Positions 2,675 to 13,009 of a stretch of 33,306 bases of DNA are shown here, piece after piece. Location of the stretch: the NCBI GenBank assembly GCA_017308185.1, contig JAFKFP010000166.1, positions 1 through 33,306 of the forward strand, written 5' to 3'. The DNA is from a bacterium. GTDB lineage: Bacteria > Chloroflexota > Dehalococcoidia > Tepidiformales > Tepidiformaceae. Below the pieces are notes generated by a model. The model ran no database searches. It was not told the DNA's origin and saw nothing but the letters and a program-made list of their open reading frames with translations. Position 1 is the first letter of the stretch, and every line of letters starts with the position of its first letter. The translations under genes were made by a program, and so were the position numbers.

Positions 2675-5023
2675 TTAACGGCCGGTCAGCGACGGCCGGG
2701 TTGAGAGCGGAGCAGGCTCCTCCGCGGCCTGCACGGCAGCACCGGAGGCGAGCAGTTCCTGTATGCGCGCTTCGGAGAATCCCCACTCGTGAAGTACTTC
2801 GACGGTGTGTTCTCCGAGGAGCGGCGCGCGCCGCGGATAACCGGAATCGCTGCGGCTCCACTCCGAGAGTGTGCGTTGCGCGCGGATGTGTCCCGCCTGT
2901 GGATGCTCCTCGTGGCCGAAGTAGTGGTTCTCTTCCACCCACGGACTCGCCATGAACTCGGCTTTGGAGAAGGCGGGCGCCGCAGGCACGCCGCGCACGA
3001 GCAGGCGGTCCAGTGCTTCTTCGCGCGGCATCGTACCGAGTGCCTCGGAGATGAGGGCGGCCAGTCCGCCTTCGATGGGCTGCGCAAAAGCCGCCTCGGC
3101 CGTCATCCGCGCGGACCACTCGTTGTGGCCGAGCGCGAGACACACCTGCGCGAACTGCTCGGGCTTCGAACACGCGAGCGCAATCCAGCCGTCTGCGCAG
3201 GCATAGAGGCGGTCGAGTGCATGGACGCCGAGGCAATCACGGCCGCCCGGTGGATTCGCCGGCCGCCCTTCGTACCAGGTGAGTTCACCGGATTGGCAGA
3301 GGATGCTCTGGTTCGCCAGACATGTCTGAATGTCCTGGCCCTCCCCGGTACGCGCACGCGCATTCAGCGCCGTGATCATGCCGAACGCGGCCATGAGTGC
3401 CGACGCGTCATCGTTGATCGGGATCGTGTAAAACACCGGCTCCTCATCCGAACCCTGCGAATGCATGAGTCCGCTCCGCGCCTGCAACAGTGGGTCGAAC
3501 CCTGGGTCGGATGAGAGGTGGCCTTCGAGACCATAGCCCGTAACCGAGCAACTGATGATGCGCGGATTCACAGCGCGAAGCGTCTCGTAGCCGATGCCCA
3601 GCCTTTCGCGCACCCCTGCGCGGTAGTTATCCAGCACGACGTCGGCGTCGCGCACCATGTCGAGGAACGCCTCGCGCCCGGCAGGCTGCTTGAGGTCGAG
3701 CACGACGCTCCGCTTACCCCGGTTGTGACCCATGAAGCCGAGCAGCCCGATCCGGAACGGGTCGCCGTCAGGCGGTTCGACCTTGATAACCTCCGCGCCC
3801 CACTGGGACAGGATGGCAGGGGCGTACGTGCCTGCGATGAACGCGCCAATATCCAGCACACGAATCCCCGCGAGCGGCCCGCCGGCAACTGCCTCGCCCG
3901 GGGAGACCAGCGGGGTGTGACTCGTGATTGCCTCCGCGTCGCCCGGTGAAGGCAGTCCGCGGATCTCCCCGGGCGTTGCGCTCAGTTTCACGGGGAGCCC
4001 CGGGATGTCGACTCGGCCCAGGCGGGGATGGCTGAATGTGAGCCGCATCTGGTTGGCCGCTACCGTTTCGCCCGCGAACCACTCTTCTGACGTGCCCACC
4101 GGGCCGCGGGGCACGTCCGCATCGTGCAAGATCTGCATCCACTCGTCGCGCGTTTTTTCGAGGAACCGCTCGTCGAGGGCATCTCCGACGCGCTCACGGT
4201 TGCCGGGTTGCATCATGCGCGCGTAATCGCCTTCGATGCCTTCGCCCACGTAGAGGTCCATGAGGTCCAGCGCATCGAGTGCGCGGATGAAGAACTGCGG
4301 CGTGAGCGCTCCAAGGAAGAGCCAGAGGCCGTCCTTGCAGCGGTAGAGACGGTAGTTCGGCGTGCCGCCGCGGCTGGAGGCCGCGCGCGGGTAGGGTGGC
4401 AGGTTCGAAGCTTCCATCGTGCCCGATGCCTGCAACGCCGCCAGGGCGTGGAGCCCGCTCACCACGAGCGCCTGCCCCTCGCCCGATCGCATCCGTTCGA
4501 ACAGACCCGCAGCTATTGCGCCCGCTGCGAGCATCCCGTGACCATAGCTCACCTGCGGCGTGACCAGGTGGACAGGCCGATCCTCGTAGCTCATTTGCGA
4601 GTACGAGGCCATGCCCACTGCTGAGAGAAGCCCGTGATCGGGCGGCAGGGCCGACCAACGGCCCGCAACACCGTATGGCGGCAGCCACGCATGCAGCAGA
4701 GCCGGGTTCCTGGTCCGCAGCGAGACCGCATCAAGCCCGCGCCGTTCCAACTCTCCGGGGAGCCAGTCGAACACCGCAACGTCGGCCGTGGCCAGGAGCG
4801 CCTTCGCCTGCGCGAGTCCCTCGTAGCGCGTGAAGTCAAGCGTGACGACCTGCTTATTGCGGTTCCAGCAGAGGTAGCCGGGATGATCCTTCATCCGGTC
4901 CCCCGCGGGTGGTTCGACCTTGATTACTTCTGCTCCGAAATCGGCGAGGTGCATGCAGGCCATCGGCCCGGCGATGCCCTGCGTGAAGTCGAGCACGCGG
5001 ATGCCTTCGAATGCGGTGGTCAT
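2675..5023 (-). CDS. Tandem-fused class III (CaiB/BaiF) CoA-transferase
   Basis: The protein has 782 residues, about twice the usual family length, because two CaiB/BaiF domains are fused (about 1-370 and 383-750). Each begins with the typical GIRVLD...GxxAG...GAEVIKVEPP block. Family III enzymes move CoA between carboxylic acids through an aspartyl-CoA intermediate. Aligned by hand to formyl-CoA transferase, the second domain keeps an Asp in IND-DASALM (about residue 538). The first has PQVSYGHG at that place (about Ser159) and lacks the Asp. The C-terminal domain is therefore probably catalytic and the N-terminal one structural or regulatory. The substrate is unknown. The start ATG is eight bases after TATACT, with no Shine-Dalgarno sequence. 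Confidence 0.93.
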   Translation of the reverse strand: MTTAFEGIRVLDFTQGIAGPMACMHLADFGAEVIKVEPPAGDRMKDHPGYLCWNRNKQVVTLDFTRYEGLAQAKALLATADVAVFDWLPGELERRGLDAVSLRTRNPALLHAWLPPYGVAGRWSALPPDHGLLSAVGMASYSQMSYEDRPVHLVTPQVSYGHGMLAAGAIAAGLFERMRSGEGQALVVSGLHALAALQASGTMEASNLPPYPRAASSRGGTPNYRLYRCKDGLWLFLGALTPQFFIRALDALDLMDLYVGEGIEGDYARMMQPGNRERVGDALDERFLEKTRDEWMQILHDADVPRGPVGTSEEWFAGETVAANQMRLTFSHPRLGRVDIPGLPVKLSATPGEIRGLPSPGDAEAITSHTPLVSPGEAVAGGPLAGIRVLDIGAFIAGTYAPAILSQWGAEVIKVEPPDGDPFRIGLLGFMGHNRGKRSVVLDLKQPAGREAFLDMVRDADVVLDNYRAGVRERLGIGYETLRAVNPRIISCSVTGYGLEGHLSSDPGFDPLLQARSGLMHSQGSDEEPVFYTIPINDDASALMAAFGMITALNARARTGEGQDIQTCLANQSILCQSGELTWYEGRPANPPGGRDCLGVHALDRLYACADGWIALACSKPEQFAQVCLALGHNEWSARMTAEAAFAQPIEGGLAALISEALGTMPREEALDRLLVRGVPAAPAFSKAEFMASPWVEENHYFGHEEHPQAGHIRAQRTLSEWSRSDSGYPRRAPLLGEHTVEVLHEWGFSEARIQELLASGAAVQAAEEPAPLSTRPSLTGR

Positions 5024-9015: not shown

Positions 9016-9978
9016 ATGCGCCGCGCAGCCATGCTCGCCATCCTTGGACTCGTGCTCACCACTTGCATCGTGGCGAGTGCCTGCGGAGAGAAGAATGCCA
9101 ACGCCGACGTCGCAGTCCAGTTCGCCTCCGCATCACCGGCCGCGTCAGCGTCAGCGCCGGCGCCCATTAAGGACCAGACCTCAATCCCACCACCGCAGCT
9201 GGTCCTCTCCACGCTGACCGTGCCCCAGGGCGGAGCAATCCTCGTTTCCGTCGTAGGCTCGGTTACCGGTGGTTCGATCGGCTTCCTCGGGAGGACCTAC
9301 CAGCTCGCGCAGGGCGCAAAGAGCATGTACAGCTTCGTCGGAGTGGCACCGGAAGATCCTGTCGGGCCGGCGAAAGTGGCCGTACAGTTCACCATGACGA
9401 ACGGCACGAAGGGCACGCTCGTCGATGATGTGACCGTCGAAAAGACGCAGTGGACCGTAGACTCCCTCGAATTCAACGGCGAAACGGAGCAACTGGCCGA
9501 CCCCAAAGTGCTCGCGGCCGACCAGGACAAACTCCAGGGCATCTATCGCCGCGCGACGCCGAAAAAGCTGTGGGATGGCCCATGGCAGATGCCGGTGGAC
9601 GGCAAGATCACCGCGAAATTCGGCGAACAGCGGTCGGTTGATGGCGGGCCGGTATCCGGCCATCATCCGGGGTCGGATATTGGCGTTGCCGTAGGCACGG
9701 ATGTCCGCGCACCCAATAGTGGCACGGTGTCATTCACCGGCCAGCTCCAGGCCTATGGGAACGTCATCGTGATCGACCACGGCGGCGGCCTCTACTCCAC
9801 ATTCGGCCACCTGAGTGAGATCGGCGTCCACGAGGGGCAGGCCGTCAAGACCGGCGACATCATCGGGAAGAGTGGCAACACCGGGCTTTCGACAGGCCCG
9901 CATCTGCACTGGGAGATGGCGATCGATGGCGTCCTGATCGATGCCACGAAGCTGGTAGATGGCACAGACGGTGTGTGA
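9016..9978 (+). CDS. M23-family (LytM-like) peptidoglycan endopeptidase lipoprotein
   Basis: This protein of 320 residues starts with a signal peptide that ends in V-A-S-A-C-G, a plausible lipobox, so it is probably a lipid-anchored surface protein. A Ser/Ala/Pro-rich linker (about 37-50) is followed by a beta-rich domain and a C-terminal M23 domain. The zinc ligands are visible as H-x3-D in GHHPGSDIGV and H-x-H in GPHLHWEM, which argues for an active metallopeptidase that cuts peptide cross-links. GAGG a few bases before ATG 9016 may be the ribosome site. It stands alone, with no FtsE/FtsX or Slt partner next to it. Confidence 0.93.
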   Translation: MRRAAMLAILGLVLTTCIVASACGEKNANADVAVQFASASPAASASAPAPIKDQTSIPPPQLVLSTLTVPQGGAILVSVVGSVTGGSIGFLGRTYQLAQGAKSMYSFVGVAPEDPVGPAKVAVQFTMTNGTKGTLVDDVTVEKTQWTVDSLEFNGETEQLADPKVLAADQDKLQGIYRRATPKKLWDGPWQMPVDGKITAKFGEQRSVDGGPVSGHHPGSDIGVAVGTDVRAPNSGTVSFTGQLQAYGNVIVIDHGGGLYSTFGHLSEIGVHEGQAVKTGDIIGKSGNTGLSTGPHLHWEMAIDGVLIDATKLVDGTDGV

Positions 9979-10018
9979 CCCCCGCCGCAGCCCAGTCGCC
10001 CTAACTGCACCTCGCCGC

Positions 10019-10024
10019 TACCCT
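10019..10024 (+). promoter_or_regulatory. Candidate -10 box TACCCT of the 10031 operon
   Basis: TACCCT is exactly six bases before ATG 10031, and no Shine-Dalgarno sequence is present. The spacing matches the other predicted leaderless starts in this window. Confidence 0.4.
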
Positions 10025-10030
10025 CAAAGT

Positions 10031-10459
10031 ATGCGCCTTGAGCTCGAAGTCGAAGGTCAGGCTGAGCGGTTCACCCCACCCGGGGGCGGCGCCAACCTTG
10101 CAGCCTTCCTCTCATTCGTGGCCATGCGCGGCTTCGGTGCGCAGCACCCGCTGATTGCGCTCGCTGATCGCCTGCACGACCAGTTCAAAGTAAAGCTCGG
10201 CCCGATGACCACCTTCTATGAAGCAGATGCCGACGACGACGAAGATCGCGCGAAGCTCGAACATGCCTGGCAGGATCCCGGGCTTCTTCGTGAGGCGTTC
10301 GAACAGTCCGCGTGCGCCTGCACCGCCGATGACCAGTGCCAGGCGCTCCTCCGGCGCGCGAGTGCGCCAGGTCTGCCCGCCGAAATGACATCGATGGTCG
10401 CCCCGCTGCAAAGAGCGGAAGCCTCCGGCGCGCGCGTCCGCATGGTGTACACCCTATGA
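10031..10459 (+). CDS. Conserved-looking hypothetical protein, coupled to a methyltransferase
   Basis: I do not recognise this 142-residue protein. It is acidic, has no signal peptide or membrane segment, and looks soluble and largely helical. A cysteine cluster near residues 95-106 (SACACTADDQC) could bind metal or form a disulfide. The N-terminus (MRLELEVEGQAERFTPP) looks like beta strands. The stop codon overlaps the next gene in an ATGA arrangement, so its translation is probably coupled to the methyltransferase and the two may act together. Codon use matches the neighbours. Confidence 0.7.
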   Translation: MRLELEVEGQAERFTPPGGGANLAAFLSFVAMRGFGAQHPLIALADRLHDQFKVKLGPMTTFYEADADDDEDRAKLEHAWQDPGLLREAFEQSACACTADDQCQALLRRASAPGLPAEMTSMVAPLQRAEASGARVRMVYTL

Positions 10460-11097
10460 TGCGCCGCCGCCGATCCACGCGTGAGGCCCGCGAACGCTGG
10501 GTGTATGGCCGTACCGCACCGCTTGCCCGCCTCGTCGCAAGCCAGCCCCTCCAGGCGATGATCACCCCACGAGCGGACCGCATCATCGACCTCGTCCAGC
10601 TCGCGCCTGGCAAGCGCTACCTCGATATCGGCTGCGGGACAGCTACCTACGCCCACCTGCTCGCCAATCGCGCCGGTCTCGATGATGCGCCAGTCACCGT
10701 GGACCTGGTAGGCGCACCGTTTCCCGTTGACGTTCTCGCGGCCCCGGAACACCTGCCGTTCGCGAATGAGAGCTTCGACTGCATCACGAGCCTGTACTAC
10801 ATCCACCGCTTCGATGACGATGCAGTCCACGGACTGGGACGGGAGATTCGCCGCATCCTCGCACCAGGCGGCGCTGCCCTGGTGATGGATGTCGCACCCG
10901 TGTACAACGGTCCCCTCAATCGTCTCCACACATCGCTCATGAGCGCCGGGTGTGTGACTGCAGACCTGCGCGGCTGGGGGCGGCTTGCAGCACTCTTCAC
11001 CGAGGCCGGCTACGACGCCATCGATCTCGTGAACGTAGGCCCGTTCTTCCTGCCGCCCGTCCCGCGCGTCGGGGTGTTGCTCAGACTTGGCAGCTAG
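10456..11097 (+). CDS. Class I SAM-dependent methyltransferase
   Basis: The 213-residue protein has SAM-binding motif I as YLDIGCGTATYA (about 53-64). There is an acidic loop after strand 2 (TVDLVGAPFPVD), motif II/III-like residues around SFDCITSLYYIHRFDD, and a post-motif LAPGGAALVMDVAP, all as in Methyltransf_11-type enzymes. The N-terminus is very basic (MMRRRRSTREAR). Two adjacent ATG codons (10456 and 10459) are possible. The first overlaps the upstream stop and is preferred. The C-terminal PFFLPPVPRVGVLLRL is unusually hydrophobic and could be a membrane contact. The substrate is unknown. Confidence 0.85.
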   Translation: MMRRRRSTREARERWVYGRTAPLARLVASQPLQAMITPRADRIIDLVQLAPGKRYLDIGCGTATYAHLLANRAGLDDAPVTVDLVGAPFPVDVLAAPEHLPFANESFDCITSLYYIHRFDDDAVHGLGREIRRILAPGGAALVMDVAPVYNGPLNRLHTSLMSAGCVTADLRGWGRLAALFTEAGYDAIDLVNVGPFFLPPVPRVGVLLRLGS

Positions 11098-11103
11098 TCT
11101 CGC

Positions 11104-11337
11104 CTACGGCTTGCCGATGCGGACGCGCCAGTCGGTGGGGCCCTGTTCGATGTAATCCCACGTGAACTCGCCCTTGTGCTCGGCTTCGAACTGGTAGTAC
11201 AGCGGCTTGGGATCGTGGTCGTTGATCAGGATGAATCCACGGCCGGGGCCGAGCTTCTCGTACGTCTCGAAGATCATTTCGTGGCGGCGCGCGGGCGGCT
11301 CGGACCGGATATCGAGTTCGGCATCAGTTGCGGGCAT
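11104..11337 (-). CDS. DUF2249 domain protein
   Basis: This small 77-residue protein is all DUF2249: DIRSEPPARRHEMIFETYEKLGPGRGFILINDHDPKPLYYQFEAEHKGEFTWDYIEQGPTDWRVRIGK. The family has a TusA-like fold and is often found beside nitric-oxide and iron-sulfur genes. GGAGG seven bases before ATG 11337 sets the start. An in-frame extension to 11475 exists but lies outside the domain and lacks its own ribosome site. The gene is divergent from the DUF59 gene next to it, with a gap of about 170 bases. Its function is undefined in general. Confidence 0.88.
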   Translation of the reverse strand: MPATDAELDIRSEPPARRHEMIFETYEKLGPGRGFILINDHDPKPLYYQFEAEHKGEFTWDYIEQGPTDWRVRIGKP

Positions 11338-11510
11338 GGCGTTGCCTCCATGTTCGTTGTGTTGATTGCAGCATGGCACATCCTCGCGCCCCGCTTGATA
11401 GACGTCATGACTATCCCCATAGGAAGTACACGCCGCCCTGTCCAGGCCGCTTGCGAATCTTTGCGTGGCGAGCAAAGCTCAGGGTGAGATCGCCGGAGGT
11501 GACCCTGGCC

Positions 11511-11852
11511 ATGCCGAATATCCAGGATCTTCTTGAGAAGCCAGCTGACGCCAAACCGCTCGTCATGGAACTGCTCCACCGCGTCGATGACCCGGAGGTG
11601 GGCGTCAACATTGTGGATCTTGGCCTCGTCCGAAATGTGCAGATCGAGGATGACGGCGACGTTCGCGTAGAAATGACGCTCACTACGCCGGCCTGCCCGC
11701 TGGGGCCGTACATGCAGGATTCGATTGTCGATGTGCTCGGCGATGCCTCATGGGTGCGTGACGTCGATGTGAAGATCGTTTGGGAGCCGCCATGGAACCC
11801 GCACCAGGACATGACCGACGTGGCGAAGCGCCACCTCGGCTGGATTCGTTAG
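11511..11852 (+). CDS. DUF59/MIP18-type metal-sulfur cluster assembly factor (SufT/PaaD-like)
   Basis: The 113-residue protein has the DUF59 pattern. LLHRVDDPEVGVNIVDLGLVRNVQIEDDGDVRVEMTLTTPACPLG spans about 22-66 and contains the conserved DPE, DLGL and TTPACP motifs with one cysteine. Members help mature or repair Fe-S proteins. GGAGGTGA at 11495-11502 is spaced eight bases from ATG 11511. A GTG at 11499 overlaps that site and is not used. The next gene begins inside its last 61 bases, so the two are translationally linked. Confidence 0.92.
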   Translation: MPNIQDLLEKPADAKPLVMELLHRVDDPEVGVNIVDLGLVRNVQIEDDGDVRVEMTLTTPACPLGPYMQDSIVDVLGDASWVRDVDVKIVWEPPWNPHQDMTDVAKRHLGWIR

Positions 11853-13009
11853 CCGGCCTTCGCCGCAAGGCGCCGCTCCTGGTGCTCGTGGCCTTCTGCC
11901 TGCTTGCCGGGCTTTGGGCCGGGCTCCTGCGGCTTGGGCTCGATGTACCCGAGCTGGACGCCTCCCTCCCCGCCGACCACGGCCCGCTGATGATTCTCGG
12001 GTTCCTCGGGACGCTCATCTCGCTTGAGCGCGCGGTTGCGCTTGGGCAGAAATGGGCGTTCCTCGCACCGCTCGGCGCCGGGCTTGGCATGGTGGTGACC
12101 CTCTTCGGAGGCGAAATCCCCGGCAACTGGCTGCTTGTTGGCGCGGGCGCGGTGCTGACCGCGGCCGCCATCGTCATCTTCATCCGGCAGCCTGCGTTGC
12201 ACTCAGCCGTCATGGGCGGCGGCGCAGTCTCGTGGCTCGTCGGCGCCGCGCTCTGGCTCGATGGACGCACTGACCTGACGACGTTCGCGTGGCTCGCCGG
12301 CTTCCTCGTGCTCACGGTTACGGGCGAGCGCCTCGAACTCGCACGCTTCACACGCCTCGAACCACTCGCCCGCAACCTCTTCCTCGGCGCATCCGCCATC
12401 TTCGGCCTCGGCCTGCTCCTCATGTTCGCCGATGAGACGCTCGGCGCGCGCGTCGTCGGAGTGGGCTTGCTGGCGCTGGCCGCCTGGCTTGGCCGCTATG
12501 ACCTCGCGCGCCGCACCATCCGCACGTCAGGGCTCACCCGCTACATGGCGGCCTGCCTGCTTGCCGGCTATGCCTGGCTCGCCATCGCCGGCGGTACCTG
12601 GATCGTCTCCGGGGCCGCCTACGGCTGGTCATACGACGCGAAGCTGCACACCGTCTTCCTCGGCTTCGTCATGTCGATGGTCTTTGGGCACGCTGCCGTG
12701 ATCTTCCCGGCTGTATTCCGTGTGGCCGTCCCCTACAAGACGGCGTTCTGGGGACATCTGGTCTTGCTCCACGCGGGCCTGGCCGTGCGTATCCTTGGTG
12801 ACGCCACCGCCAACCGCGATGCCTGGCAAACCGGCGGCGTCATCAACGAGATCGCGATCCTATTATTCATCGCCGTCGTTGGCGGCACCGCGTTCCGCGC
12901 GACACGCGCCCGCGCGCGCCGCCAGGGGCGTTCCCCAAACCTGGCGCCCGGCCTCTCCGCGCACGACCAGTTGCCCTCCATGCCACCTGCGGGCGACTTC
13001 GAAGCCTGA
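11792..13009 (+). CDS. Polytopic membrane protein with conserved histidines (NnrS-like?)
   Basis: The 405-residue protein has about 12 hydrophobic segments. Histidine motifs sit at predicted membrane positions: DHGPLMILGFLGTLISLERAVALG early, and KLHTVFLGFVMSMVFGHAAVIFPAV late. This layout recalls NnrS-type proteins of nitric-oxide metabolism, which bind heme and copper. Identity with that family is only suggestive. Neighbouring DUF59 and DUF2249 genes are a known context for such proteins. GGGAG at 11782-11786 is five bases before ATG 11792, inside the DUF59 gene. The C-terminal 35 residues are basic, then proline-rich, and probably cytosolic. Confidence 0.6.
   Translation: MEPAPGHDRRGEAPPRLDSLAGLRRKAPLLVLVAFCLLAGLWAGLLRLGLDVPELDASLPADHGPLMILGFLGTLISLERAVALGQKWAFLAPLGAGLGMVVTLFGGEIPGNWLLVGAGAVLTAAAIVIFIRQPALHSAVMGGGAVSWLVGAALWLDGRTDLTTFAWLAGFLVLTVTGERLELARFTRLEPLARNLFLGASAIFGLGLLLMFADETLGARVVGVGLLALAAWLGRYDLARRTIRTSGLTRYMAACLLAGYAWLAIAGGTWIVSGAAYGWSYDAKLHTVFLGFVMSMVFGHAAVIFPAVFRVAVPYKTAFWGHLVLLHAGLAVRILGDATANRDAWQTGGVINEIAILLFIAVVGGTAFRATRARARRQGRSPNLAPGLSAHDQLPSMPPAGDFEA

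Follow-up and report, generated by a model that had tools for sequence, protein, structure and literature searches.

Heme–copper oxidase (HCO) subunit I holds its low-spin heme through a histidine in TM2 and the second histidine of an HxH motif in TM10, its high-spin heme through the first histidine of that motif, and CuB through one histidine in TM6 and two in TM7. NnrS of Rhodobacter contains heme and copper. NnrS is also said to belong to a set of noncatalytic 12-helix HCO homologues (HCOH, three-unit families) reportedly described by Pei et al. in 2014 (Protein Sci 23:1220), a class for which two conserved histidines, a proposed single heme and denitrification contexts are reported. PMC1274295 places NnrS in the NsrR, NorR, DNR and NnrR regulons of various proteobacteria, and PMC11218638, citing Pei et al. 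2014, associates DUF2249 with the HCO superfamily.

Here we analyze a bacterial locus in which genes for a DUF2249 protein and a DUF59 protein accompany a membrane protein (MP) that lacks a named family. Judged by its predicted structure, MP is most likely a catalytically reduced homologue of HCO subunit I, of the NnrS-like kind.

A divergent DUF2249/DUF59–MP locus

The window, the whole stretch of DNA analyzed (33,306 nucleotides), is contig C19 of a Chloroflexota genome assembled in 443 contigs. In it, the DUF2249 gene is divergent from a DUF59–MP pair (Table 1); the three genes lie where the initial annotation had placed them, and Pfam confirms the assignment of the first two. The DUF2249 protein matches PF10006 over residues 1 to 70 of 70 (E 3.8e-29; 100.8 bits against a gathering score of 29.5), and the DUF59 protein matches PF01883 (E 1.8e-18; 67 bits, cut-off 23.5); relatives of the latter on plasmids are annotated as metal-sulfur cluster assembly factor. 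Because it scores 87.5 bits on TIGR02945, under the cut-off of 143.4, the DUF59 protein is not SufT proper. It is likewise under the cut-off of TIGR03406 (84.1 bits against 202.6) and under both curated cut-offs of the PaaD models TIGR02159 and NF041868. As the likely MP start is the ATG at 11792, the MP gene overlaps the DUF59 gene by 61 bases.

Table 1. Coordinates of the features discussed, as positions in the window.
Feature	Position	Strand	Basis or remark
DUF2249 protein	ORF 11104-11475; likely ATG 11337 (11104..11337)	-	Pfam; start inferred from sequence
Intergenic region, 173 bases, presumed promoters, holds TTGATagacGTCAT	11338..11510	.	Sequence
DUF59 / FeS_assembly_P protein, SufT/PaaD-like	11511..11852	+	PF01883
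Membrane protein (MP)	ORF 11780-13009 from TTG 11780; likely ATG 11792 (11792..13009)	+	Start inferred; AlphaFold2 model
His63 codon, start of TM2 (HGPLM)	11978..11980	+	Invariant 79/79; proposed low-spin heme ligand
His286 codon, TM10 (KLHTVFLGF)	12647..12649	+	Invariant 79/79; proposed second low-spin heme ligand
His300 codon, TM10 (FGHAAV)	12689..12691	+	Invariant 79/79; family-specific

The sequence TTGATagacGTCAT in the intergenic region agrees with the FNR/DNR box at 8 of 10 positions. FNR/DNR control of the DUF2249 and DUF59–MP genes is nevertheless unsupported, as the MP family shows no upstream enrichment of them over other stretches of its loci: sites of at least 8/10 occur in 16/80 upstream stretches (the window's included), in 15% of 1508 random stretches from the same loci, and in 7.5% of 1600 shuffles, with one of 80 loci dropped as too short. 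Among the seven window ORFs put to Pfam, no NO gene was recognized; flanking genes were assigned to methyltransferase and NUDIX families. Elsewhere in the window, a 166-residue ORF (9959-10459, +) overlaps the terminal part of an M23 peptidase gene and has no Pfam or NCBIfam match, and a 782-residue ORF (2675-5023, -) contains, by eye, a tandem pair of halves that resemble CoA-transferase family III.

MP itself matches no Pfam family at E up to 1; its NCBIfam match is at chance level (E 0.27), and neither PDB sequences, searched with the single sequence or a profile, nor PHROGs returned a match. Relatives were found in 6 of 61 genomes near the window, its own included, two of these matches (L008 and L009) being distant, NnrS-like rows, and on 11 plasmid records. 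A scan of species genomes matched at least 593 stretches, of which at least 560 were confirmed as encoding the MP family. The best 80 of these confirmed stretches are the loci used below; alignment A3 (79 rows) comprises 78 of them plus the window, L072 and L087, whose MP is split by a frameshift, being left out. Rows of a quick tree span ten phylum-level groups and place the window among mostly actinobacterial rows at an open, weakly supported fork, from which no transfer is claimed. The family is thus widespread, and it is without a Pfam or NCBIfam model here.

Three histidines that had been singled out as conserved from the window sequence alone, H63 (in HGPLM), H286 (KLHTVFLGF) and H300 (FGHAAV; numbering from ATG 11792), proved to be exactly that: each is invariant in all 79 rows, and the three motifs are also present in L072 and the frameshifted L087. 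Alignment A1, whose 11 rows include two NnrS-like intermediates, also has H300 throughout (there numbered 304). Other invariant residues include E79, R80, E179, R180, D237, W262, M296, T175 and R333, and H327 in TM11 is kept in 68/79 rows.

Predicted fold and heme ligands

The AlphaFold2 model of MP, built with 79 rows, has a mean pLDDT of 91.6, a pTM of 0.88 and 12 long helices, in agreement with the 12 membrane segments counted by the initial annotation. In a Foldseek search of the PDB, chains of cbb3 oxidases ranked first, with a best E of 3.7e-3 and no match reaching 1e-3, and all chains of the first 45 ranks came from entries of oxidases, NO reductases or respiratory supercomplexes; the lack of non-HCO families in this search says nothing on other folds. 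VIA-align superposed the model on CcoN (8smr_E) with Z 28.5 (3.5 A over 349 residues, 14% identity), on the NO reductase cNorB (4xyd_A) with Z 26.4, and on a second NO reductase with Z 25.5. By the tool's own note, mostly helical models that match nothing clearly reach a typical best Z of 14. Because the best value is about twice that, the model firmly predicts a 12-helix HCO subunit I fold for MP.

At the level of sequence profiles, MP and CcoN align weakly in hhalign (P 0.065, 133 columns), and MP against NorB gave P 0.42. NnrS fared no better against CcoN (P 0.61) or NorB (P 0.19), with a NorB profile set of three rows; CcoN against NorB gave P 1.9e-9. No COX1 (PF00115) match was found in the window MP or in members of the family. 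The link of MP to the HCO superfamily is thus carried by the model, since the MP–CcoN alignment is weak and NnrS against CcoN finds nothing.

H286 aligns with the second histidine of the CcoN HxH motif (within that weak overall alignment, P 0.065) and with the histidine of the NnrS LHALTVG motif. H63 aligns in the region of the NnrS TM2 HxHEM motif, and we tentatively take it to be the position of the CcoN TM2 histidine, matched by hand and via NnrS. MP position 284, which lies under the first histidine of the CcoN HxH motif and would hold a high-spin heme, is not conserved in the 79 rows. For CuB, no histidine is present in at least 75% of the 79 rows within the helices at residues 162-184 and 191-210 (TM6 and TM7). 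Given this placement of H63 and H286, and the lack of conservation at position 284 and of TM6/TM7 histidines, a binuclear center is not expected, and MP probably holds one low-spin b heme between H63 of TM2 and H286 of TM10. With the CuB and high-spin heme sites gone, MP is not predicted to catalyze the O2 or NO reduction known from oxidases and NO reductases. The suggestion that MP might carry heme has thereby gained two invariant histidines at putative low-spin heme positions, and binding itself stays a prediction, as do the sidedness and function of MP.

A three-fold internal repeat with E79, E179 and H300 in register was considered and rejected. An hhalign comparison of the family with itself returned nothing, and by internal-repeat window score the TM2/TM6 pair ranked 6292 of 69378, with both TM10 pairs below the middle.

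MP is not NnrS by the Pfam model: against the PF05940 gathering score of 28 bits, the window MP has no match and a single member of 79 reaches only E 0.038. The two families are nonetheless linked, weakly, by collinear profile alignment. Against 31 NnrS rows, hhalign aligned 342 collinear columns with P 4.3e-4 (0.075 for a reversed-NnrS control) at a low probability of 33.8, and an earlier profile alignment with four NnrS rows gave P 0.0097. Two sequences, L018 and L019, appear intermediate; they match MP at E 1e-11 and 1e-4, and NnrS at 5.5e-7 (over the cut-off) and 0.028. Because the alignment is collinear and intermediates exist, yet the NnrS cut-off is missed, MP is better regarded as a sister family than as NnrS. 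The comparison with NnrS and HCO profiles that the initial annotation had proposed ends with neither Pfam model matched and a collinear alignment with NnrS. Its proviso that an MP other than NnrS would be a separate family sharing the NO setting was essentially right.

MP shows the HCO-like 12-helix fold, two conserved histidines and NO context that reportedly mark the HCOH class. MP is most likely a new member of it alongside NnrS. If the class is as Pei et al. reportedly described it, the kind of family to which MP belongs is already known. A literature search on HCO and NnrS did not return the term HCOH, which is no proof that the MP family is unpublished.

Gene neighborhoods and association with NirK

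We counted a gene as near MP when it lay between 3 kb upstream and 4 kb downstream of the MP start. By this measure, among the best 80 loci, DUF59 is near MP in 47, DUF2249 in 31, both in 20 and neither in 22. Eighteen of the 22 are Chloroflexi lineages by record title. In 20 the contig continues for 1.5 kb or more upstream of MP, and in the other two (L020 and L073) it stops no further than 332 bases upstream. In one locus, L076, DUF59 and MP form a single ORF of 491 residues, a natural fusion. Five of the 11 plasmid matches were examined. Four are annotated around MP, and in 4/4 of these DUF59 and DUF2249 lie within about 1 kb of MP; the fifth, from Methylobacterium, has no annotation there. 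On pHG1 of Cupriavidus necator H16, whose MP homologue is WP_011154151, norR, ytfE, norB and a hemerythrin gene are found near MP, DUF59 and DUF2249; the Jiella pelagia plasmid has NnrS, nosR, nosD and hmp near MP, the Paraburkholderia fungorum plasmid has NnrS and hemerythrins, and the Variovorax boronicumulans plasmid has DUF2249, DUF59, MP and NnrS in a row. Rrf2 is also among the genes in these plasmid neighborhoods. The three genes do recur together elsewhere, as in the 20 loci with both partners. To judge by the four annotated plasmids and by the DUF2249 genes close to MP within the phylum (below), the grouping goes beyond chance; it is not universal.

Other neighbors were tallied by Pfam: of the 157 ORFs that flank MP most closely in the 80 loci, 141 were scanned. 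The leading 25 of 116 families include HDOD, Rrf2, hemerythrin and IclR HTH (6 each) and COX1 and cupin (5 each), raw counts for which no enrichment is claimed. An HMM search found Rrf2 regulator genes in 9/80 loci, and NnrS lies within the flanks examined in only 3/80. For 32 of the 80 loci (23 proteobacterial, 9 actinobacterial), NnrS was searched for across the genome; 22 genomes have a match over the cut-off and one more a weak match, with none found in 9/9 of the actinobacterial genomes.

Several loci hold unusual relatives of respiratory or metal-handling genes. In G145, a DUF59-Mrp type NTPase, a CopD-like protein, a cupin and a small COX1-like protein are close to MP. L165 encodes, adjoining the MP locus (9601-10884, +), a DUF59 domain joined to an Mrp/NUBPL-type iron-transfer NTPase. 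One ORF of L084 (8040-9584, +) comprises MP and a PCu(A)C copper chaperone, through fusion or a lost stop, and its PCu(A)C part begins with an apparent lipoprotein signal. Small COX1-like proteins below the cut-off are encoded near MP in L075 (9069-9488, +; 139 aa, COX1 positions 314-393 of 436), where the protein belongs to a cluster found in 8/80 loci, and in L165 (5726-6280, -; 184 aa, COX1 positions 4-103 of 436). These two may be single four-helix oxidase units.

Within the phylum of the window, 62 of 400 genomes match MP at E up to 1e-3. We kept 51 as MP genomes (E < ~1e-40), the other 11 being fragments or weak matches, and compared them with the remaining 349. NirK over the TIGR02376 cut-off is present in 26/51 MP genomes and 26/349 others (Fisher p 4.2e-13), leaving 25/51 without; at a looser E of 1e-40 the counts are 35/51 and 71/349 (p 1e-11). 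DUF2249 occurs in 33/51 and 74/349 (p 9.9e-10), and within 3 kb of MP in at least 19/51, the window included. NnrS shows a weaker association (9/51 and 20/349, p 0.006), and all these Fisher p-values overstate independence because the genomes are related. A crude family-level count for NirK gives 11/18 against 8/88, with the total of 106 families assumed from numbering. In G262 and G327, MP and nirK are on one strand at a distance of about 0.35 kb, and in G302 at 1.9 kb. The genome of the window has NirK (304.6 bits, cut-off 296.3), and no NnrS match was found in it. The NO setting that the initial annotation had guessed from DUF59 and DUF2249 therefore stands, through the co-occurrence of NirK and DUF2249 and the plasmid genes for YtfE, norB, norR, NnrS, nosR/nosD, hmp and hemerythrin.

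In the same genome, DUF2249 matches four places, split between two contigs. Three lie in a row on one strand of contig C117 (14468-15237), where the scanned downstream genes encode a TetR regulator and a GH38 mannosidase. On contig C213, a 459-residue membrane protein (L175:760-2139, -) matches COX1 weakly (E 2.5e-7, over positions 5-206 of 436) and is possibly another noncatalytic oxidase-like paralogue.

Proposed role and comparison with known systems

On balance, the genomic context suggests that MP is a heme protein acting with the DUF59 and DUF2249 proteins in NO tolerance. Where cells make NO or encounter it, MP would be the membrane heme protein, and DUF59, of Fe-S carrier type, and DUF2249 its cytosolic partners. 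In the simplest version, MP would pass electrons, or handle NO at its heme, and NO-damaged Fe-S or other metal centers would be protected or repaired. Counting against this role are the 22 loci with neither partner near MP, the 25 of 51 MP genomes in which no NirK passes the cut-off, the failure to recognize an NO gene among the seven window ORFs put to Pfam, and the FNR/DNR-type site that is not enriched upstream. A more elaborate form, which we consider doubtful, would have MP and DUF59 form a single membrane machine in which a b cytochrome of oxidase fold serves a docked Fe-S carrier, with DUF2249. Quinol electrons, or NO taken at the heme, would go to the docked DUF59, and NO-damaged iron-sulfur centers would be rebuilt; the invariant E79-R80, E179-R180 and H300 would form, on the cytoplasmic side, a cofactor or docking site that replaces the lost CuB site.

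MP could instead traffic heme, copper or iron, or serve as a maturation protein in the assembly of NirK, NO reductase or an oxidase, and have no part in NO defense itself. The co-occurrence with NirK fits such a role, as do the cupins, CopD-like proteins, PCu(A)C and small COX1-like proteins near MP in some loci and the L084 ORF that joins MP to PCu(A)C; the commonest recognized neighbors are nevertheless DUF59 and DUF2249, not copper genes, and in 25 of the 51 MP genomes no NirK scores above the cut-off; we hold this role unlikely. Less plausible is a membrane device of MP and DUF2249 that senses nitrate or NO, for which the divergent layout of the window and the DUF2249 proteins of other organisms speak. 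PMC6282519 presents Thermus DrpA and DrpB, DUF2249-type proteins (two domains in DrpB), as proposed nitrate sensors that affect nitrate respiration and alter nar expression and maturation, and PMC11218638 reports DUF2249 genes induced in denitrification in Haloferax mediterranei. Against such a device, MP has no output domain or kinase (no Pfam domain), Rrf2 genes occur in only the 9/80 loci noted above, and DUF59 is of the metal-cluster assembly type, not a signaling type. That MP is an ordinary transporter with histidines conserved by chance, as 12 helices and the lack of a named Pfam family might allow, is extremely improbable and already contradicted by the fold match, with a Z of 28 to HCO subunit I at about twice the typical best for unmatched helical models, invariance of the histidines in 79/79 rows and collinearity with NnrS; the firm match to an unrelated transporter family that would have spoken against the initial annotation did not arise.

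The defined three-gene module and the natural DUF59–MP fusion offer a testable handle on the roles of DUF2249, DUF59 and NnrS-like proteins in denitrification. The MP family tracks NirK-bearing bacteria, and MP adds a case of an oxidase fold retained after loss of the catalytic metal site.

Among described systems, SufT (TIGR02945/TIGR03406) and PaaD (TIGR02159, NF041868) share their domain match with the window DUF59 protein, which scores under their curated cut-offs; unlike SufT and PaaD, its relative in L076 is joined to the membrane protein. The catalytic HCO and NO reductase subunits CcoN and NorB (PF00115) have the 12-helix fold in common with MP, whereas their CuB ligands and high-spin heme histidine are not conserved in MP, which has no COX1 Pfam match. 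The NnrS (PF05940) motifs His-x3-Met-x2-Gly-Phe in TM2 and Leu-His-Ala-x3-Gly in TM10 are collinear with those of MP, the two families share NO and denitrification neighborhoods, and NnrS adjoins MP on the Variovorax plasmid. MP differs from NnrS by a single TM2 histidine and by the family-specific E79-R80, E179-R180 and H300.
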